A stretch of 22,544 bases of DNA. Origin: a virus. The stretch spans positions 1-22,544 of IMG/VR virus record IMGVR_UViG_3300021976_000076. One strand, written 5' to 3'. The notes below the pieces were generated by a model. That model had not been told where the DNA came from and did no database searches. It saw only the letters and a program-made list of their open reading frames with translations. Positions 3,734-18,685 of this stretch are shown piece after piece (position 1 is the stretch's first letter; the number at the start of each line of letters is the position of its first letter). Both the position numbers and the translations under genes were made by a program.

Positions 3734-3929
3734 GTTTCTCCCTTATAGAAATAAAAGTGGATTGGTCGGTCGTGCATGGCTAGTCAGCTTATGTCCGATT
3801 TTACCCTCCAATGTCCATTTATCGGAATGCATGGGGACTCTCTATGGACCATGCTAGCACAGTGCTGGATATCCGCAAACGGGAGATGGATACCCATATG
3901 TACGTCTTTGCACTGACTTCATAGATTTC

Positions 3930-3962
3930 AAGCATAGAACACTCTCTTCGTTCGTTATGCTT
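3930..3962. repeat. Hairpin-forming inverted repeat
   Basis: AAGCATA (3930-3936) pairs with TATGCTT (3956-3962). GAAC (3937-3940) pairs with GTTC (3950-3953) after a 2-base bulge, leaving a 9-base loop. TTATC follows on the + strand, so it could be a weak terminator or part of a structured RNA. Confidence 0.4.
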
Positions 3963-4107
3963 TTATCTATTAACTCTTAATAAGGAATAGATCGCGAATT
4001 CGTGCAAAAGCGGGGACTGCGCCCCCATACACTCATTCACTCTCATGCATCAAACTTTTTTAATTTAAGTTTGGATTCAAGCCCACATATTAGATGATAT
4101 AGCATTC

Positions 4108-4129
4108 ATGAGTTATTAATGAGTTATTA
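4108..4129. repeat. Perfect tandem 11-bp repeat, iteron-like
   Basis: ATGAGTTATTA occurs twice with no spacer (4108-4118 and 4119-4129). The 11-bp period is one helical turn, so a protein could bind both copies on the same face. It sits at the edge of the most AT-rich part of the non-coding region. Confidence 0.6.
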
Positions 4130-4297
4130 TAGGTCGTGCTATTTATATTATATTGTATGTTATGATGCCCGTCATAGCGTATTACTTCCATCGAAATCGT
4201 ATTTATCCTATATCACTAAGAGTAACGCTAATATACTAACACACAGTAAGGCGCATATATAAGAACATTAAGGCTTTAAGACAAAGCAACGATCTAT

Positions 4298-4356
4298 TAT
4301 TCCTACATTACACTATTCCTACATCAGAACTTTGATTCATTATAACGTACCTACAT
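4298..4356. repeat. CCTACAT direct repeats at 16-bp multiples
   Basis: CCTACAT begins at 4302, 4318 and 4350, which are spacings of 16 and 32 bp. The first two copies share the longer core TATTCCTACAT (4298-4308, 4314-4324). The regular spacing suggests repeated binding sites rather than chance. Confidence 0.5.
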
Positions 4357-4486
4357 TGAGACATTAATATCTTGTCCAATAAATCCATGCGATTTTATGA
4401 GCGGTAGTCCCTAAGATCTACAAAGAAAAATAAAGGAACCATCTCAGAAAAATTAGAGAACCCTAAAAGAAAATCTAAAAATCCAA

Positions 4487-4573
4487 AATCAAGATTCCAA
4501 CCTGCTAACGCAGGGCTCAATCAAGAATCAGTCAATCAAGAATCAACCTTTACAAAGCATTAAATCAAGAATC
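4487..4573. repeat. AATCAAGAATC direct repeat array (four copies)
   Basis: Copies lie at 4487-4497 (AATCAAGATTC, one mismatch), 4519-4529, 4534-4544 and 4563-4573. Start-to-start spacings are 32, 15 and 29 bp. A short hairpin (CCTGC-TAAC-GCAGG, 4501-4514) lies between copies one and two. All copies point the same way. They resemble iterons or a multi-site operator upstream of the rightward genes. Confidence 0.65.
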
Positions 4574-4627
4574 CATCCCAAGAGCGTGTGGCGTTAAAAC
4601 AAAAATAAAATAAAAGGTAACATCCTT

Positions 4628-4807
4628 AGAGGCCATATGTGAACGTGACAGCCTGAGAGCCTCTGTAAGCCCCTGAGACCCGAATACCCCTACCCGTGTG
4701 CCTATTTGGACTGTTAGAGCCTCAGGGAGGACACTGGGTACCTCAAATGAGGGATTAGAGAATCTGGGCAGGCTGGAGGACTTCTGAGGAAGTGATGTGG
4801 GTCACAT
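4628..4807 (+). promoter_or_regulatory. G+C-richer leader with inverted repeats upstream of the rightward genes
   Basis: Complementary pairs include AGAGGC (4628-4633) with GCCTCT (4659-4664), CCCTGAG (4671-4677) with CTCAGGG (4721-4727), CCTCA with TGAGG (4741-4752), and ATGTG (4795-4799) with CACAT (4803-4807). The composition differs from the AT-rich surroundings. It may be a folded 5' leader RNA. No known riboswitch or terminator pattern was recognised. Confidence 0.4.
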
Positions 4808-4893
4808 TCCTTGCTTTTGGAGATCCTTATGTGAGAGATTGAACGTGGGAGATTAGCTGTCTCTCCACGGATAAGTGAGGATTGGGGACTTTA

Positions 4894-8795: not shown

Positions 8796-9094
8796 CATCT
8801 CCTACACCAACTTCAAGAGCTAAAGTAGTTGCTACTAATGCTCCAACTGCTCAAGAGGTTGCAATACTTCATAGTAATTCAGATGTAGATTCTAGTGTTA
8901 ATGCACAGCATCATACCTTAGGTATTCAACATAATCAGTCTAATCCTGGTGATCATAAACATGATGGGAAGTCTTCTAGAAGAATTGGTACAAGCATTAA
9001 TCCTGCTTTTCCTACTACCGCTTCTGCAACTTATTCACAAGTTCAAATACAGGCTATTATCGATGCTCTAAGAGCTATAGGATTTGGAACGTAG
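8792..9094 (+). CDS. His-rich virion-associated protein (100 aa), function unknown
   Basis: ATG at 8792 sits in an ATGA junction. A longer frame from 8762 lacks support. The middle contains SDVDSSVNAQHHTLGIQHNQ, followed by PGDHKHDGKSS. The H-H-T-L-G-x-x-x-N-Q-x-x-P-G-D-H-x-H-D-G motif is one I recall from proteins near fibre and terminase genes in actinobacteriophages. The His cluster may bind metal. The C-terminus is a helix (QVQIQAIIDALRAIGFGT). It is probably a partner of the fibre-like proteins, but no function is proven. Confidence 0.72.
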   Translation: MTSPTPTSRAKVVATNAPTAQEVAILHSNSDVDSSVNAQHHTLGIQHNQSNPGDHKHDGKSSRRIGTSINPAFPTTASATYSQVQIQAIIDALRAIGFGT

Positions 9095-10536
9095 TGAGTT
9101 CTGATTTTTTAGAAGAACTAGCTCGTAGACTAGTTCACGCAGCTGCCAAACCAAATGTTTTATCTTATGTACCTAATTCATCTGTACATCAAGAATTTCA
9201 TGAATCTAATAAGGTAGGTCGTCTGTTACGAGGGGGTAACAGAAGTGGAAAATCTACCGCTGGAATTGTAGAGGATATCTGGAGAGCTACAGGAAAACAT
9301 CCTTATCAAGCTACACATGATTTACCTGTAAGAGGTAGAATTGTAACAGTGGATAAAGACAATGGTATTGAAAAAATTATTAAACCTTTACTCGCACAGT
9401 GGACACCTCCTAGCGAATTAGTGAATGGCTCTTGGGAGGATTCGTGGAAAAATAGGGGAGCGCTACTAACTTTTAGAAATGGCTCAACTATTGAAGTAAT
9501 GACACATCAACAAGAAGTTGAATCTTTTGCTGGTATTCCTCTTCACTTTATTCACTTTGATGAAGAATGTCCTAGTGCAATCTTCAATGAGTGTCGTCTT
9601 CGTTTAATTGACTTTAATGGTTGTTGGTACATGACCATGACTCCTGTTGATGGACAGGATTGGATTTTCGATAGATTTATTGTATCTGCTAATAAAAATG
9701 TAGACATGTTCGAAGTTAATATTGCTAGTAATCCCCATTTGAACAAAGAAGCTCTTAAGATACTTAGTGAAGATTTAACTGAAGAAGAAAAAGATGTTAG
9801 AGAAAAAGGTATCTTTGTTCCTAAAGGTGGGTTGATTCTTAGAGAATTCGACTACACAAGGCACGTCATTAAAGGTGGAGGACCGATACCAAAACACTGG
9901 ACTATTAACATTTCTATAGATCATGGATTTAATAATCCTACTGCTGCTCTTTGGCACGCTGTTTCCCCTCAGGGCAGAGTAGTTACATTCAAAGAGCATT
10001 ATAAAAGAAAATTAGTCATTAAAGATCACGTTAAAAGAATTAAAGAGATTAATGAAGAAATTGGCAGAGAGCCTGTCATGTATATGTGTGATCCTTCAAT
10101 GAGTCAGAAAACTGCTGAAACAGGTACTTCACCTTTACAGATTTATAGAGATAATGGGATTCCTTTAATACCTGCTAAGAAAGATGTAGATGGCAGGATT
10201 AATAAAATGAATGAGTATTTAAAATACGATATGTGGAGTATTACGGAAGCGTGTCCTAATACAATTAAGGAGATTAGAAGTTATAGTTTTATGATTTTCA
10301 ACTCTCCAAAGATTGCGGACAGAAATAATGTTAGAGAACAACCTAAGAAAAAGAATGATCACTGTCCTGACTCTTGTGGTTACTTTTTTAATTTTATGCC
10401 GTATATTACTCCAGAGGTTAAAAATTTGGCTCGTGGACGGAGTTTAACAGAAATTAATAGAGAAGATTTTCCCTGGGAAGTTGATTCTCAATTTATTCAA
10501 TCTGATCCAGATAATTATGCCTTTGGAGAGATTTAA
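9094..10536 (+). CDS. terL: Terminase large subunit
   Basis: ATPase and nuclease that packages DNA into the procapsid through the portal. The start is GTG in a TAGTG junction. Walker A is GGNRSGKS (residues 47-54), Walker B IHFDEE (153-158), and the coupling motif TMTPVDG (181-187). The C-terminal RNase H-like nuclease has Asp276 in SIDHGFNNP, Asp333 in MCDPS and a third acidic site near Asp422-Asp426 (NDHCPDSCGYF). The length, 480 aa, is normal for the family. It is intact and co-expressed with the downstream head genes. No intron or intein is seen. Confidence 0.96.
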   Translation: MSSDFLEELARRLVHAAAKPNVLSYVPNSSVHQEFHESNKVGRLLRGGNRSGKSTAGIVEDIWRATGKHPYQATHDLPVRGRIVTVDKDNGIEKIIKPLLAQWTPPSELVNGSWEDSWKNRGALLTFRNGSTIEVMTHQQEVESFAGIPLHFIHFDEECPSAIFNECRLRLIDFNGCWYMTMTPVDGQDWIFDRFIVSANKNVDMFEVNIASNPHLNKEALKILSEDLTEEEKDVREKGIFVPKGGLILREFDYTRHVIKGGGPIPKHWTINISIDHGFNNPTAALWHAVSPQGRVVTFKEHYKRKLVIKDHVKRIKEINEEIGREPVMYMCDPSMSQKTAETGTSPLQIYRDNGIPLIPAKKDVDGRINKMNEYLKYDMWSITEACPNTIKEIRSYSFMIFNSPKIADRNNVREQPKKKNDHCPDSCGYFFNFMPYITPEVKNLARGRSLTEINREDFPWEVDSQFIQSDPDNYAFGEI

Positions 10537-11129: not shown

Positions 11130-11283
11130 TGAATACTTTCCTAAAGATGATGCATCAGAAGAAAAACAATTAAGAGATATTAGTGGTGTAGGTGAAGAAG
11201 TAACGTATCTTAGTCCTGATGAAGTACGCCAGTACGCTATGAATGATTTTGGTATGGGTTTTGATGAAGAGATTCAGCGATGA
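10927..11283 (+). CDS. Small membrane protein overprinted on the zinc-ribbon gene (118 aa)
   Basis: ATG at 10927 has TAAGGA about 5 bases upstream. The N-terminus is a clear transmembrane helix (VYILLGIILLLILALWW, residues 3-19). It is followed by a Gln-rich helix (SQQLMNQQLIQQNRELLNRL) and an acidic C-terminal part ending FGMGFDEEIQR. The first 203 bases lie inside the zinc-ribbon gene in another frame. After 11129 only this frame is open, and it runs to an ATGA junction with the portal gene. Both frames therefore look used. The function is unknown; membrane anchoring upstream of the portal gene is unusual for a head protein. Confidence 0.8.
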   Translation: MIVYILLGIILLLILALWWSLNHPPVSQQLMNQQLIQQNRELLNRLQAPDVRTFAALQNYSTIVPSSDEYFPKDDASEEKQLRDISGVGEEVTYLSPDEVRQYAMNDFGMGFDEEIQR

Positions 11284-13415
11284 CGTATCCAGATGATCCT
11301 AAAGGTTTAACTAGTGTAGGAGATATTTTTACAGCGGAAGGTAAGGATGCTGATAAATTAAGAATAAGATTAGCTGCTATTGGAATGGAATGGTTTCATC
11401 GCTGTCAGAATCAAAGGATTAGACAAGAGAGACAGTGGTATCTTAATTTAGCTTTCTTTTATGGTAACCAGCATGTACAATTCAGACAGACGACAACAGG
11501 TAACAACTTTGATCTACATACACCTAAGGCACCTTACTATAGGGTACGCATCGTAGTTAATCAGGTTAGAAAGATTGTTCGCAAAGAGATATCTAGATTG
11601 TGTGCGCAAAAGCCTAATGCATTTGTTGTACCTTCTTCAACTGAAGATGCTGACATCTTTGCTGCACAAGCAGGTGAACAGATTTGGGACTCCCTGTGGC
11701 GTGGATTAAAATTTAATAAAGTACTTAGAGAAGCAGTGTTTTGGCAAGCTGTTTGTGGTAATGGATTTATTAAAACTTATTGGGATGCTAATAAGATAGA
11801 TCTTGATAGTTCAAAAGATCCTGATCCTATGAATCCTGGTGCTGATACTAAGGTATATGGTGTTATTTGTATTGATAACGTAAGTCCTTTTCACGTTTTT
11901 GTACCTGATCTAATGTGTACAGATATTGAAGATCAGCCTTACATTATTCACGCACAAATTAGAAACAATTCATGGATTAAACAGAGTTTTGGTATTGATG
12001 CAATTAGCGATAAGTTAGAATCAGTAGATGAAGGTTTACTTAATGTAATGGGAATTAGTAAGCATGATAGTAAGAAAGATCAGAGTATAATTTTAGAAAT
12101 TTGGGTTAAGCCTGGTTATCTACCAGAGCTTCCTGAAGGTGGTATGTTTACTATTGCTGCTAGTAAACTAGTTCAAGGTTTTGCTAAATGGCCATATGAA
12201 CATGGACAATATCCTATTTCTAAGATAGATGCTAGTCCTACGGGTAAATTTTACAATTCATCAATTATTGAAGACCTAATTCCTTTACAGCAAGAACTTA
12301 ATCGTTCTCGTAGTCAGTTAATTGAATCAAAGAATAGGATGAGTAAGCCTCAATTAATAGCTGAAAAAGGTTCAATAGATGCTAAAATGATTACTACTGA
12401 ACCTGGACAAGTTATTTTTCACGCAGTTGGCAGTGCTCCGCCACAGCCACTTCCTTTACAGAATCTCCCTAGCTATGTAACAGAAGAAATTAACCGGTTG
12501 TACGACGATATGGCTGATATTAGTGGACAGCACGAAGTAAGTAATGGAAGTACACCGCCTGGAGTAACCGCTGCAACTGCAATTAGCTTCTTGCAAGAGC
12601 AAGATGAAAGTTTAATTGCTGGTCATTACAACTCTATTGAAGAAGCAGTAGAAAAAATTGCCTCACAAGCTTTGATATTTGTTAAGATGTATTGGGATGA
12701 AGAACGTACTGTTAAAGTTGTAGGTCTTGAAGGTACGTTTGATGTTCAAACATTTAAGAATTCAGATCTTCGAGGTAATTCTGATATTAGAGTTGAATCA
12801 GGTTCTGCACTTCCTACTTCTCGTGCTGCTAAACAAGCATTTATTATGGATCTTATGAAGATGGGCTTTATTCAACCTGATGAAGGTTTGGAAATTCTCG
12901 AGGTTGGCGGCCTTAATAGAATTTATGAGCGTATCCAGGTAGATAAACGACAGGCACAAAGAGAAAATCTTAAGATGCGTGTTATTACTGAAGAAGATCA
13001 AACAAAACACATGCAAGAATGGCAGTCACAGCAGAATCCAGAAGTTAAAAAAGACATTGATGCTGGTTTGAATCTGGAACCTCCATTACTTGTTCCCGTT
13101 CATACTTATGATAATCACGAAATTCACATGGCACTTCATAATACGTATCGTAAAAGTCAAAATTTTGAGGGTGCTTCTACACTAACTAAGGCTATATTTG
13201 AAGAACATGTTAGACAGCATGCAGAAGCAATGGCTGGAATGATGACTCATCCTCTTACTGGTATGGATCCAAGTAATCCAAATGCACCAGATCCAGAAGA
13301 GGAAGAAGCAACTCTACAACAACAAGATCAAGAAAATTCGCAAGAAGATTCACAAGAAAGTTCGGGTCCTGTTCCAATGCCTGAGATGTCAGGAGATCAG
13401 CCACAGGGAGGTTAG
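11280..13415 (+). CDS. Portal protein
   Basis: The 711-residue size is close to the P22 portal. The N-terminal region contains RKEISRLCAQKPNAFVVPSS and a long alpha/beta body. Residues about 318-352 hold the core SIIEDLIPLQQELNRSRSQL preceded by DASPTGKFYN, typical of portals. The C-terminal 60 residues are acidic and Gln-rich and probably form the barrel or a disordered tail. The dodecameric portal is the DNA entry port and head-tail joint. It lies directly after the terminase block and before the scaffold, the usual order. Two copies of the TGTGGCG heptamer lie in this gene, in different codon frames (L-W-R at 11695; P-P-Q at 12439). Confidence 0.92.
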   Translation: MTYPDDPKGLTSVGDIFTAEGKDADKLRIRLAAIGMEWFHRCQNQRIRQERQWYLNLAFFYGNQHVQFRQTTTGNNFDLHTPKAPYYRVRIVVNQVRKIVRKEISRLCAQKPNAFVVPSSTEDADIFAAQAGEQIWDSLWRGLKFNKVLREAVFWQAVCGNGFIKTYWDANKIDLDSSKDPDPMNPGADTKVYGVICIDNVSPFHVFVPDLMCTDIEDQPYIIHAQIRNNSWIKQSFGIDAISDKLESVDEGLLNVMGISKHDSKKDQSIILEIWVKPGYLPELPEGGMFTIAASKLVQGFAKWPYEHGQYPISKIDASPTGKFYNSSIIEDLIPLQQELNRSRSQLIESKNRMSKPQLIAEKGSIDAKMITTEPGQVIFHAVGSAPPQPLPLQNLPSYVTEEINRLYDDMADISGQHEVSNGSTPPGVTAATAISFLQEQDESLIAGHYNSIEEAVEKIASQALIFVKMYWDEERTVKVVGLEGTFDVQTFKNSDLRGNSDIRVESGSALPTSRAAKQAFIMDLMKMGFIQPDEGLEILEVGGLNRIYERIQVDKRQAQRENLKMRVITEEDQTKHMQEWQSQQNPEVKKDIDAGLNLEPPLLVPVHTYDNHEIHMALHNTYRKSQNFEGASTLTKAIFEEHVRQHAEAMAGMMTHPLTGMDPSNPNAPDPEEEEATLQQQDQENSQEDSQESSGPVPMPEMSGDQPQGG

Positions 13416-13901: not shown

Positions 13902-14074
13902 TGGCAGCAGGTAAGGCTACTGGTTATACAGACTTTTATAAAGGTACAGATAAAACTCCTGGATCTTCTGTTAGTGATCAAATTGGTTCTACAGATAATG
14001 AAGAGTTAGATCCTGATACTCGTAGAAAGTTAGCCATTAAGAGAAGGCTAGCAAGGTCAAAGAGGAGTCAGTAA
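13901..14074 (+). CDS. Small basic hypothetical protein (57 aa)
   Basis: Starts and ends in TAATG junctions with the portal-adjacent protein and the scaffold. The N-terminal 40 residues are polar and Gly/Thr/Asp-rich. The C-terminus is strongly basic (RRKLAIKRRLARSKRSQ) and could bind DNA, RNA or the acidic scaffold. No known family is recognised. The perfect coupling on both sides supports it as a real gene. Confidence 0.75.
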   Translation: MAAGKATGYTDFYKGTDKTPGSSVSDQIGSTDNEELDPDTRRKLAIKRRLARSKRSQ

Positions 14075-14823
14075 TGGGTCAGCCTACACCTCCAGGAGAT
14101 TTACCCCTTATTGAGGGGTTAGATCCTTCTTGGAACGAGCTTGTAAATTATATTCCTGAAGATAAAAGGGCTGAATTTGGTCCTAAATTAAAGGAACGTG
14201 TTACTTCTGCTACTTCTGAATATGAACCACTTAAGCAGTGGGAAGGATTTCAGAAATCTGGAGTAACTCCGGATCAGGCAGATACAGCTCTTAGATTATT
14301 CAATCTTATTGAAACGAATCCTCGTCAGGTATATGATGCTATCGCAGGTCATTTAGGAATTACAACTGAGCAAGCTAAAGAAGTTGTTAAAGAAGTAAAA
14401 GCAGATCAGGCTGCTAATCCTTATGATTCTAAAATTAAGACAATGGAAGAGCAGATGGCGACAATGTCGCAGATTATGCTTGCACAACGACAGATGACTG
14501 CAAAAGAGCAACAGGATGCCGAGATGGATGCTGTGGTGGATCAAGAACTTAGTGATATTAAAAAGAAGTACGGCAATGATGTTCCCGATGATCAAATTCT
14601 TATGCGTATGTATACAAAGAATATGACAGCTGAAGAGGCTTATCAAGAATATGCTGGTTTTGTAACCGATGTTAGAAGTCGTCGACCTGCTCCTATGATT
14701 ATGGGTGCTGGAGGAAACATTCCTAGTAATAGGGCTATTGATCCTACTAAATTAAACAGTAAAGAAACAAAGAACTTAGTAGCTCAGATGCTTGACCATG
14801 CAAATGCAGAAGCAAATAAGTAA
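14074..14823 (+). CDS. Scaffolding protein
   Basis: The 249-residue protein lies directly before the major capsid gene. It has an acidic, Pro-containing start, a helical segment (QADTALRLFNLIETNPRQVY), a predicted coiled coil around residues 120-165 (Lys/Glu/Met/Gln-rich) and a polar C-terminal tail (KNLVAQMLDHANAEANK). This is the usual design of a procapsid scaffold, which binds capsid monomers through its C-terminus and leaves before packaging. No protease motif is visible. The assignment rests on position, composition and resemblance to scaffold proteins. Confidence 0.82.
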   Translation: MGQPTPPGDLPLIEGLDPSWNELVNYIPEDKRAEFGPKLKERVTSATSEYEPLKQWEGFQKSGVTPDQADTALRLFNLIETNPRQVYDAIAGHLGITTEQAKEVVKEVKADQAANPYDSKIKTMEEQMATMSQIMLAQRQMTAKEQQDAEMDAVVDQELSDIKKKYGNDVPDDQILMRMYTKNMTAEEAYQEYAGFVTDVRSRRPAPMIMGAGGNIPSNRAIDPTKLNSKETKNLVAQMLDHANAEANK

Positions 14824-14910
14824 GTAGTACTGAGGGTCTAAATCCTCAACGTAGTTGAATTAGTTAAAGATTTATTATTTTAATTCATTCTATGTTGGAG
14901 GGCAGTAACT
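14824..14910 (+). promoter_or_regulatory. Leader of the capsid gene with a strong ribosome site
   Basis: An 87-base gap breaks the tight coupling seen elsewhere. TGAGG (14831-14835) pairs with CCTCA (14844-14848). The next 40 bases are very AT-rich and contain TTGAAT and TATTTT-like blocks with poor spacing, so a capsid promoter is possible but unproven. GGAGG (14897-14901) is the only strong ribosome site and lies 9 bases before ATT at 14911. Confidence 0.5.
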
Positions 14911-16146
14911 ATTACTACCACACTTACTACCGCTGCTAATATTCTTAAAGAGGTTTACGAGCCTAAGGTTCGAGACCAGTTACAGTCTGAAGTTATTACT
15001 ATTTCTCGAATTGAAAAGACCTCTGAAGGAGTTGAAACTAACTCTGTAGGTGGTAAGTATGTTCGATTTGGTGTGCGTGTTCAGAGAAACCATGGTATTG
15101 GTTCTCGAAATGAAATGGAAGCTCTTCCTAGTCCTAAGACTCAGGACTACCGAGATGCTCAGTTAAGGCTTTCTTATGGTTATGGTGCGATTCAGCTTTC
15201 GGGTCAGTCTTTTGAATTAGCAGAATCGGATACTCAGGCTTTTGCTAGTCTTTTAGATCAGGAAGTTGATGGTATTAAGGAAGGTCTTAAAAAGGAGACC
15301 AACCGACAGGCTTATGGAACTTCTCAGGGTGTTTTAGCAATTGCAGCTTCTGGTTCTACGACTACTTTTGTTGTTTCGAATCTTGCGGGTTTACAGTATC
15401 TTGAAATTGGTATGCTTGTAGATATTTACAACTCTACGAGTACTGTTATTACTCCTGTTCTTTCTACTGCTAGTGTTAGTATTACAGATATTACCCCCGC
15501 TACTCTTACAGTTACCATTTCTACAGCAGCTGCTGTAGGTGCTGGTTTCTTTATGACTCGTGGTGGTTCACACCAGAAAGAGCCTGTTGGTTTTGAGCAG
15601 ATTGTTGCAGGTTTAGCTACTACAGCAACTGCTCTTGGTAATGGTGCTGGTGCTCTTTATAATATTACACATGGTACATGGACTGGAAATATGGATACGA
15701 CTGCGGGAGCTATTTCCGAAGGTCGTATGATTAACATGATTGATGCGATTCGTACTCGTGGTGGCACTACTACTGTTGGTTTTTGTTCTCTTGGTGTTCG
15801 TCGTGCATATGCAAACTTGTTAGAGCAGCAGCGTCGTTATGTTAATACTACTAAGTTTACTGGTGGTTTTTCTGGAATTGCTTTCACTACTGACGGTGGA
15901 GAGATTCCTATTGTTGCAGATTTCGATTGCCAGGCCGGACGTCTTTATTTCTTAAATGAGAAGCAACTTAAGATTTATCGTGCAGCTGATTGGTCTTTCA
16001 TGAATCGTGATGGAAATATGTGGCAGCGTCTTATTGACTCTTCTGGTGAGTATGACGCTTATCGGGCACGGTTGTTTAGCTATTGGCAGATTGGTACACA
16101 CCGTCGTAATACCCACGGTCTCATGACTGCTATTATTGAAGCTTAA
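14911..16146 (+). CDS. Major capsid protein (HK97 fold), apparent ATT start
   Basis: The reading frame is open from a stop at 14881-14883 to TAA at 16144-16146. There is no ATG in frame until well inside the domain, and the only GTG (15073) lies inside conserved sequence. Reading from ATT at 14911 gives (I)TTTLTTAANILKEVYEPKV, which matches the usual M-T-T-L-T-T-A-A-N start of this capsid family. The product is then 411 aa. Residues about 141-219 form a beta-rich insertion (GSTTTFVVSN ... TLTVTISTAAAVGAGFFM). The N-arm, P-domain helices and C-terminal A-domain (RVRYF-like, GEYDAYRARLFSYWQIGTHR) are as expected. The shell protein is normally the most abundant product, so the start codon is remarkable. 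Confidence 0.9.
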   Translation: MTTTLTTAANILKEVYEPKVRDQLQSEVITISRIEKTSEGVETNSVGGKYVRFGVRVQRNHGIGSRNEMEALPSPKTQDYRDAQLRLSYGYGAIQLSGQSFELAESDTQAFASLLDQEVDGIKEGLKKETNRQAYGTSQGVLAIAASGSTTTFVVSNLAGLQYLEIGMLVDIYNSTSTVITPVLSTASVSITDITPATLTVTISTAAAVGAGFFMTRGGSHQKEPVGFEQIVAGLATTATALGNGAGALYNITHGTWTGNMDTTAGAISEGRMINMIDAIRTRGGTTTVGFCSLGVRRAYANLLEQQRRYVNTTKFTGGFSGIAFTTDGGEIPIVADFDCQAGRLYFLNEKQLKIYRAADWSFMNRDGNMWQRLIDSSGEYDAYRARLFSYWQIGTHRRNTHGLMTAIIEA

Positions 16147-17209: not shown

Positions 17210-17608
17210 ATGTGGACTGATCAAAGAGACCTGGCCTACTGTGCAGGTCTCTTTGAGGGTGAAGGAAATATTCAATTTTTTAAACAGCAAAATAAATTAA
17301 AAGATGGTTCTTACGGCAGGAGTTTTAGATCTTTACAGCTAAAAATTGAAATGACTGATAAAGAACCTTTAATTAGGTTTGGGGAATCTCTAGCTATTGG
17401 AAAAGTAAGTGGACCTTATATTAAACCTGATAATAGAAAATCTACTTATACCTTTAGCGTTACTAAATTTGAGCATGTACAGTATGTTATTAGCAGTATT
17501 TGGTACTGGCTGAGCCCTAGAAGAAAAGAGCAAATATCTAAGGCTTTAAAGAGTTATCTAAGCCATGAAATGATAAGGAGGCCATACCGCCGTGAATCAA
17601 ATAGATGA
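17210..17608 (+). CDS. LAGLIDADG homing endonuclease, free-standing (132 aa)
   Basis: Residues 8-19 are LAYCAGLFEGEG, a clear LAGLIDADG motif with the expected catalytic acid at Glu18. A single motif and 132 residues suggest a homodimer that makes a double-strand break in DNA lacking the gene, so the gene is copied during repair. It is not inside a recognisable intron: neighbours appear complete. The ribosome site is weak. Its last 17 bases overlap the start of the next gene, and the GGAGG used by that gene lies inside the endonuclease gene. It is a mobile gene that probably invaded the junction between two head genes. Confidence 0.88.
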   Translation: MWTDQRDLAYCAGLFEGEGNIQFFKQQNKLKDGSYGRSFRSLQLKIEMTDKEPLIRFGESLAIGKVSGPYIKPDNRKSTYTFSVTKFEHVQYVISSIWYWLSPRRKEQISKALKSYLSHEMIRRPYRRESNR

Positions 17609-18035
17609 ATGGATATCACAAGAGTTTCAAAATCTTGCTGAAGTACTTTCTGATTATGATCCTTATTTGGCACTGGAAATGGTTCCTTTAGCTGAATGGG
17701 ATAAATTAATTGATAAATCTAAAGTTTTTCGAGTTATAGATACCAGAAAAAATCAAATAGTTTTATATGCTGATTCACTCGCCAGTCCTCAAGATATTCT
17801 TGCTAGAGTATGGAGTATGGATCAGAACAAGAATAATGTAGTAGCCAATCTAGATGCTAGAAATGCAGCGGCGCAAGCTCTTCAAATGAGAAAAAATTTA
17901 GATGAAATAGAAGCTCAAAAAGATTTTGCTCTGTTTGTTGCTAAGAATCAAAAAAGTAGATGGGTACACGAGGGACGAGTTAAAGATGAACACTTTAGAG
18001 ATTTAGGATCCGTTAGAAAAGTAATTGACAAATGA
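17592..18035 (+). CDS. Conserved head-tail region protein (147 aa), function unknown
   Basis: GTG at 17592 with GGAGG about 10 bases upstream starts the frame. There is no closer in-frame ATG. The sequence SDYDPYLALEMVPLAEW, DKSKVFRVIDTR, IVLYADSLASPQDI, VVANLDARNAAAQALQMRK and NQKSRWVHEGRVKDEHF follows a conserved pattern I recall from actinobacteriophage head-tail regions. Probably helical at the C-terminus. It overlaps the adaptor gene by 4 bases (ATGA). The exact role (for example minor head protein) is not known to me. Confidence 0.78.
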   Translation: MNQIDEWISQEFQNLAEVLSDYDPYLALEMVPLAEWDKLIDKSKVFRVIDTRKNQIVLYADSLASPQDILARVWSMDQNKNNVVANLDARNAAAQALQMRKNLDEIEAQKDFALFVAKNQKSRWVHEGRVKDEHFRDLGSVRKVIDK

Positions 18036-18685
18036 TAGTACAAGATGTAATAACCAGAGTTCGTCGAGTCTTCGGTGATGCGGCTGCTGTTCAGGTAACA
18101 GATGATGATGTCATTCGATGGATTAATGATGCACAGGTTGAAATAGTCAAAAGAAATGACGCTGCTTTACAGAAAACAGATCTCATTGATTTAGTAGTTA
18201 ACCAAGCTACGTATGTAATGCCCACAGATTTATTAATTCTTCGTTCTTTACGCTTTAAGTATTCGTCGTCTTTAAGCTTTAGTGCATTAAGATATAAAAA
18301 CATGCAAGAATTTGATGATTCTGTTGATGGATGGGACGGTACACTCTATAGTGCAGCTCCTCCACAGTGGTTTACAATGTATGAGGGCAAAGTAATTTTA
18401 TTTCCTGTTCCAGATCAGTCAATGGTAGACGGTTTAAAAGTTCTCTATAACCAGAAACCGACTGATGTAGTAGGTCTAGGTGATACATTAGCACTACCTA
18501 TTATCTATCATAATTCAATAATGCAGTACTGTATGTGGCAGGCTAGTTTATTAGATGAAGATCATGAACCTGCTCTGATGTATAAAACTAATTTTGTAGA
18601 AGATATGTCTATTTTATCAAGTAAAGAAACTTCTGATCCTGTTGCAACGTATCCTGTCATTACAGTGCTGGAGTACGATCAATAG
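18032..18685 (+). CDS. Head-tail adaptor (connector) protein
   Basis: The 217-residue protein begins MIVQDVITRVRRVFGDAAAV, then TDDDVIRWINDAQVEIVKRN, a pattern shared by phage connector adaptors (P22 gp4 / T7 gp11 type) that bind the portal. The middle is beta-rich (PPQWFTMYEGKVILFPVPD) and the C-terminus helical. It lies directly before the nozzle gene, as in podoviruses. It starts at an ATGA junction. Confidence is good for an adaptor role and moderate for the exact family. Confidence 0.85.
   Translation: MIVQDVITRVRRVFGDAAAVQVTDDDVIRWINDAQVEIVKRNDAALQKTDLIDLVVNQATYVMPTDLLILRSLRFKYSSSLSFSALRYKNMQEFDDSVDGWDGTLYSAAPPQWFTMYEGKVILFPVPDQSMVDGLKVLYNQKPTDVVGLGDTLALPIIYHNSIMQYCMWQASLLDEDHEPALMYKTNFVEDMSILSSKETSDPVATYPVITVLEYDQ

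Follow-up and report, generated by a model that had tools for sequence, protein, structure and literature searches.

A clade of uncultured phages appears to start its major capsid gene at an AUU codon

The stretch of DNA analysed here (the window), 22,544 bases long, is the whole of one IMG/VR virus record, in which genes were found in the order terminase (9094-10536), portal (11280-13415), scaffold, capsid and SU10 adaptor (18032-18685). The gene upstream of the capsid gene (14074..14823, + strand) encodes a 249 aa product that is a probable scaffolding protein, judging from its position between the portal and capsid genes; the phrogs that this product matched, all of them weakly, have no assigned function, and the order is kept in relatives. 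Matching gene order around the capsid gene was also found in the cultured phages Shocker and Brad. Elsewhere in the window, the translation of an ORF lying amid the structural genes (17210-17608) contains a GLFEGEGNI motif and resembles a LAGLIDADG-type homing endonuclease, and a region of ~1.1 kb between leftward and rightward genes (3734-4881) holds no ORF of 60 aa and is possibly a divergent control region.

The major capsid protein (MCP) gene (14911..16146, + strand; 411 codons plus stop) was assigned from profile searches and from purifying selection on its codons. Residues 2-411 matched phrog_14242 (major head protein; E 9.4e-81), with the alignment beginning at residue 2 of the protein and position 2 of the model, and the match to the Pfam family SU10_MCP (PF17236) scored 36.7 bits, above the cut-off of 24.1 (E 4.5e-9); a comparison with solved structures gave no sequence match. 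The frame is open from 14884, after a TAA at 14881-14883, to the stop ending at 16146. A sequence-only reading of this DNA had claimed that the frame contains no ATG, GTG or TTG until the GTG at 15073, and that an ATT lies 9 bases past a GGAGG. Sequence and translations agree on the former, and the coordinates of the latter were confirmed (GGAGG at 14897-14901; ATT, the putative start codon, at 14911..14913, + strand; 9 nt between). The peptide directly after the ATT is TTTLTTAANILKEVYEP.

Relatives were gathered by protein and DNA-pattern scans of IMG/VR, some of the related records being fragments. The same reading had left to be checked whether relatives also carry ATT, and they do: the arrangement was found in 13 other IMG/VR contigs, yielding 9 further distinct MCP variants with ~67-91% protein identity to the MCP of the window and coming from many separate metagenome assemblies. 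ATT stands at the homologous codon in the window and in L002, L003, L005, L006, L008, L012, L018, L020 and L022, and all 10 distinct ATT sequences lack an upstream in-frame ATG, GTG or TTG before a stop is reached. In every ATT variant, the sequence GGAGGGCAGT ends 3 or 4 bases 5' of the ATT. When the pattern GGAGGGCAGT-N2-5-ATTACTAC was used, 13 of 13 IMG/VR stretches proved to be capsid genes; none of the 46 stretches carrying GGAGGGCAGT-N2-5-DTGACNAC encodes a capsid relative. Since ATT is the usual Ile codon of these genes (207 of 230, the remainder being ATC), its invariance over other Ile codons would by itself be weak evidence. Codon bias alone does not, though, account for the invariance of codon 1, as ATG, GTG and TTG are absent there in all ten sequences. 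Strong comparative evidence comes instead from the presence of a non-canonical codon in 10 of 11 members of the clade, as against a canonical start elsewhere in the family.

The history of the start codon was read from a tree of 64 proteins, with 11 in the ATT clade and 53 outside it. The 53 sequences outside the clade all use ATG, GTG or TTG, placed at the homologous codon or close to it; distant relatives (46-57% identity) carry a canonical start at the ATT-homologous codon or 1-3 codons upstream. In the cultured actinophages Shocker, DS1 and Brad, the annotated MCP ATG falls exactly at the ATT-homologous position. Two changes are needed on this tree: ATT was gained at the base of the clade of 11, which is well supported, and in L004 the codon reverted to ATG. 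The latter sequence is sister to L003 inside the window's own subgroup (96-99% support), and its placement is independent of the outgroup, which is long-branched. The presence of ATT throughout the clade's other members, together with canonical starts in sister groups, indicates an inherited start and not a misread G. These comparisons confirm the observation that one lineage of uncultured phages has the putative start of its MCP gene at AUU.

The ribosome-binding site GGAGGGCAGT (14897..14906, + strand) consists of the Shine-Dalgarno (SD) core GGAGG followed by a conserved GCAGT. It is invariant in all ATT-starting leaders; in L004, which starts with ATG, it has degenerated into AGAAGGGTTT. 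For comparison, the third base was invariant at 24 of 114 four-fold sites in the MCP genes (21%), so that ten straight invariant bases would be unlikely without constraint (~0.21 to the tenth power, with sites treated as independent). GCAGT is conserved beyond the requirement for an SD. In pairing calculations of the upstream 17 bases with the 16S tail CACCUCCUUUCU (an assumed actinobacterial-type tail, which may not be that of the host), ATT genes gave -9.8 to -10.8 kcal/mol, whereas the median for ATG genes was -8.9 and the value for L004 was -7.7; ATT leaders pair more strongly than those of other family members (Mann-Whitney p 6e-6, uncorrected for shared descent). No second exact copy of GGAGGGCAGT was found in the window, where near matches were as frequent as in shuffles.

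Further upstream, the leader contains a hairpin, TGAGG/CCTCA (14831-14835 / 14844-14848), followed by a conserved ACGTAGTTG (14849-14857), the whole element spanning 14830..14857 on the + strand. Hairpin and ACGTAGTTG are common to the whole clade, and the innermost pair covaries, being G-C in the window, L003, L004, L005, L008, L010, L011 and L020, and A-T in L002, L006 and L012. Each capsid leader has a single copy of the element, and nothing else in the scanned records matched it as closely; an Rfam search of the leader returned no family. In silico folds of the leader bury the SD in part, often by pairing the 3' arm of the hairpin or ACGTAG with the SD region, which makes an SD-hiding leader switch possible. 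This partial burial of the SD counts against the proposed AUU initiation. A single conserved SD-hiding fold was rejected: the folds and the partners of ACGTAGTTG vary between members, with z-scores from -0.4 to -4.6, and no common switch is claimed for this reason. In L004, the site upstream of the ATG reads AGAAGGGTTTGGAATG, with both the SD core and GCAGT lost, and the hairpin is unchanged. The retention of the hairpin in an ATG-starting leader suggests a function independent of the AUU start; having lost ATT and GGAGGGCAGT together, L004 instead points to GGAGGGCAGT as the element tied to that start. As a single event, this return is no more than suggestive of a coupling between GGAGGGCAGT and AUU.

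Several other explanations for the ATT were weighed. A base-call or assembly error, with G as the true base at 14913, would require one substitution to give back ATG, the codon carried by the close relative L004; this reading is refuted by the recovery of ATT in ten distinct sequences from separate assemblies, and L004 differs across the entire Shine-Dalgarno region, beyond the start codon. Translation could also begin downstream, at GTG 15073, the first canonical start in the window, or in some relatives at codon 5, where five members of the ATT clade have an ATG as a potential start and the others Leu; this ATG was seen in L006, L010, L011, L012 and their copies. A start at 15073 would, however, lose 54 family-conserved residues (including ILKEVYE and DQLQSE), and these are under purifying selection, with a pN/pS of 0.22 over codons 2-55 versus 0.30 over the remaining codons, which indicates that codons 2-55 are translated. 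The first downstream canonical start, moreover, differs in place from relative to relative, and none is common to all. We therefore consider a downstream start very improbable. Much the same holds for initiation elsewhere followed by a frameshift, for example from the ATG at 14892 (MLEGSN..., overlapping the SD) with a +1 shift. This ATG, at -19, was found in the window, L002, L003 and L005, but is missing in L006, L008, L010, L012 and L020, and no sign of a slippery site was seen. The spacer of L008 and L020 has lost one base (8 versus 9 nt), altering the frame relation with SD and ATT kept, which argues against frameshifting.

A harder alternative concerns the meaning of the start and not its existence. 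The AUU could be genuine and carry no regulatory significance, having arisen as a chance change that was tolerated through the strong SD and kept by drift. This would fit with the single occurrence of the ATG-to-ATT change, with the possibility that the SD core alone compensates, and with L004 as proof that the AUU/SD combination can be undone. Against it, ATT, one base away from ATG, was retained in nine lineages while four-fold sites diverged widely, and the conservation of GCAGT exceeds the need of an SD. We regard drift as a serious contender, at somewhat less than even odds. Distinctly less probable, and on balance unlikely, is that GGAGGGCAGU-AUU forms a dedicated element tying capsid synthesis to IF3 or free 30S subunits, or that a late phage or host factor makes AUU efficient; if this were so, the most abundant virion protein would be switched at the start codon itself.

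Taken together, these comparisons favour SD-driven translation of the clade's MCP from the AUU at 14911, a reading to which we assign a probability of about 0.9. GGAGG would pair with the 16S rRNA tail and position the 30S subunit, and the initiator fMet-tRNA would read AUU through near-cognate pairing, giving the expected product fMet-TTTLTTAAN, that is, an N-terminus of (M)TTTLTTAANILK. The strong SD, perhaps with GCAGU, may offset the weak start codon, and AUU might then act as a set-point on capsid synthesis, possibly varying with the levels of IF3 or free 30S. IF3-dependent or timed control is plausible, infC-like control through IF3 being only an analogy. A high capsid output might be reached through abundant mRNA, through the SD, or in a host that is less strict in selecting starts.

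Ten phage records, fragments among them, gave no match to the IF3 domain PF00707. A phage-encoded initiator tRNA for AUU was considered and rejected: the tRNAs in five related records comprise Leu(UAA) and odd tRNA-like genes, the latter without the three G-C anticodon-stem pairs of an initiator. In three related contigs, these odd genes (L109:718-787, L110:1501-1571 and L111:1501-1591, all above the Rfam tRNA cut-off) lie ~0.6-1.1 kb upstream of a tRNA-Leu(UAA). The anticodon loop of one is 6 nt long, another reads as AGG, and another has a greatly extended anticodon stem. When the same genomes were screened mechanically for near-cognate codons preceded by an SD, no other convincing AUU start emerged. 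Small proteins made up of a stand-alone ANTAR domain, in frames of 63-99 codons, are encoded in four related contigs of 43-47 kb (G012:32849-33037 and 33592-33849; G013:11953-12144; G009:45481-45678; G005:14194-14490). The ANTAR domain is known from RNA-binding antiterminators; no obvious ANTAR dual-hexaloop motif was seen in the capsid leader. The related phage G012 (L126-L128) also has a gene whose product contains an Acb2/Tad1 hairpin domain; members of this family are known to block nucleotide-signal defence. The nearest cultured relatives, at <41% identity, infect Arthrobacter, Microbacterium and Cellulosimicrobium, and a G+C of 38-42% is low for hosts of these types.

AUU starts are regarded as rare, weak and fit for low-output regulatory genes. 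The AUU clade, with its matched ribosome site and a natural revertant lacking both, offers a clean comparison through which the attainable strength of an AUU start, and the reason for its retention, could be studied. There is also a practical consequence, in that gene finders limited to ATG, GTG and TTG would truncate or miss this hallmark phage gene. Among phages, gene 26 of T4 reportedly has an internal AUU start (attributed to Nivinskas et al. 1992), so that a phage gene using AUU would have a precedent; that start lies inside a baseplate gene and its product is a minor one, unlike the MCP. The SU10-type/phrog_14242 MCPs of Shocker, Brad and DS1 are homologous (38-40% identity) with a matching N-terminal position, but start at ATG.

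In E. coli, infC (encoding IF3) and pcnB have natural AUU starts, against which IF3 discriminates (Sacerdot et al. 1996 and Binns and Masters 2002, as cited in PMC2268962 and PMC13009471). Excess IF3 inhibits non-canonical starts (PMC2268962). Both E. coli genes have a low output and encode regulators or enzymes, one of them with self-feedback, whereas the capsid gene encodes the major virion protein. Compared with AUG, an AUU start yields much less protein in both E. coli and S. aureus (~10% in the latter; PMC13009471), and would be an odd choice for the most abundant virion protein. Comparable cases are S. aureus cvfC1 (AUU) and ccpN (AUA), in which a conserved near-cognate start follows a strong, extended and conserved SD, with ~10% of AUG output in reporters (PMC13009471). 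The capsid AUU resembles them in combining a conserved near-cognate start with a strong conserved SD, but cvfC1 and ccpN are chromosomal, low-demand genes, and the capsid GCAGT sits 3' of the SD core with no obvious added pairing to the 16S tail, unlike their extended SD. In Yersinia pestis, the AUU of RcsD-Hpt is a working start with a ribosome-binding site, proven by mutation (PMC10191623); it is an internal start in a frameshifted gene of one species, whereas the capsid AUU would be the sole start clade-wide. These published starts support the chemistry of AUU initiation. A literature search, with most subscription journals outside its scope, found no AUU or ATT start of a phage capsid gene. 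While AUU starts are thus known in cellular genes such as infC, pcnB and cvfC1, a clade-wide AUU start for a phage MCP appears to be new.
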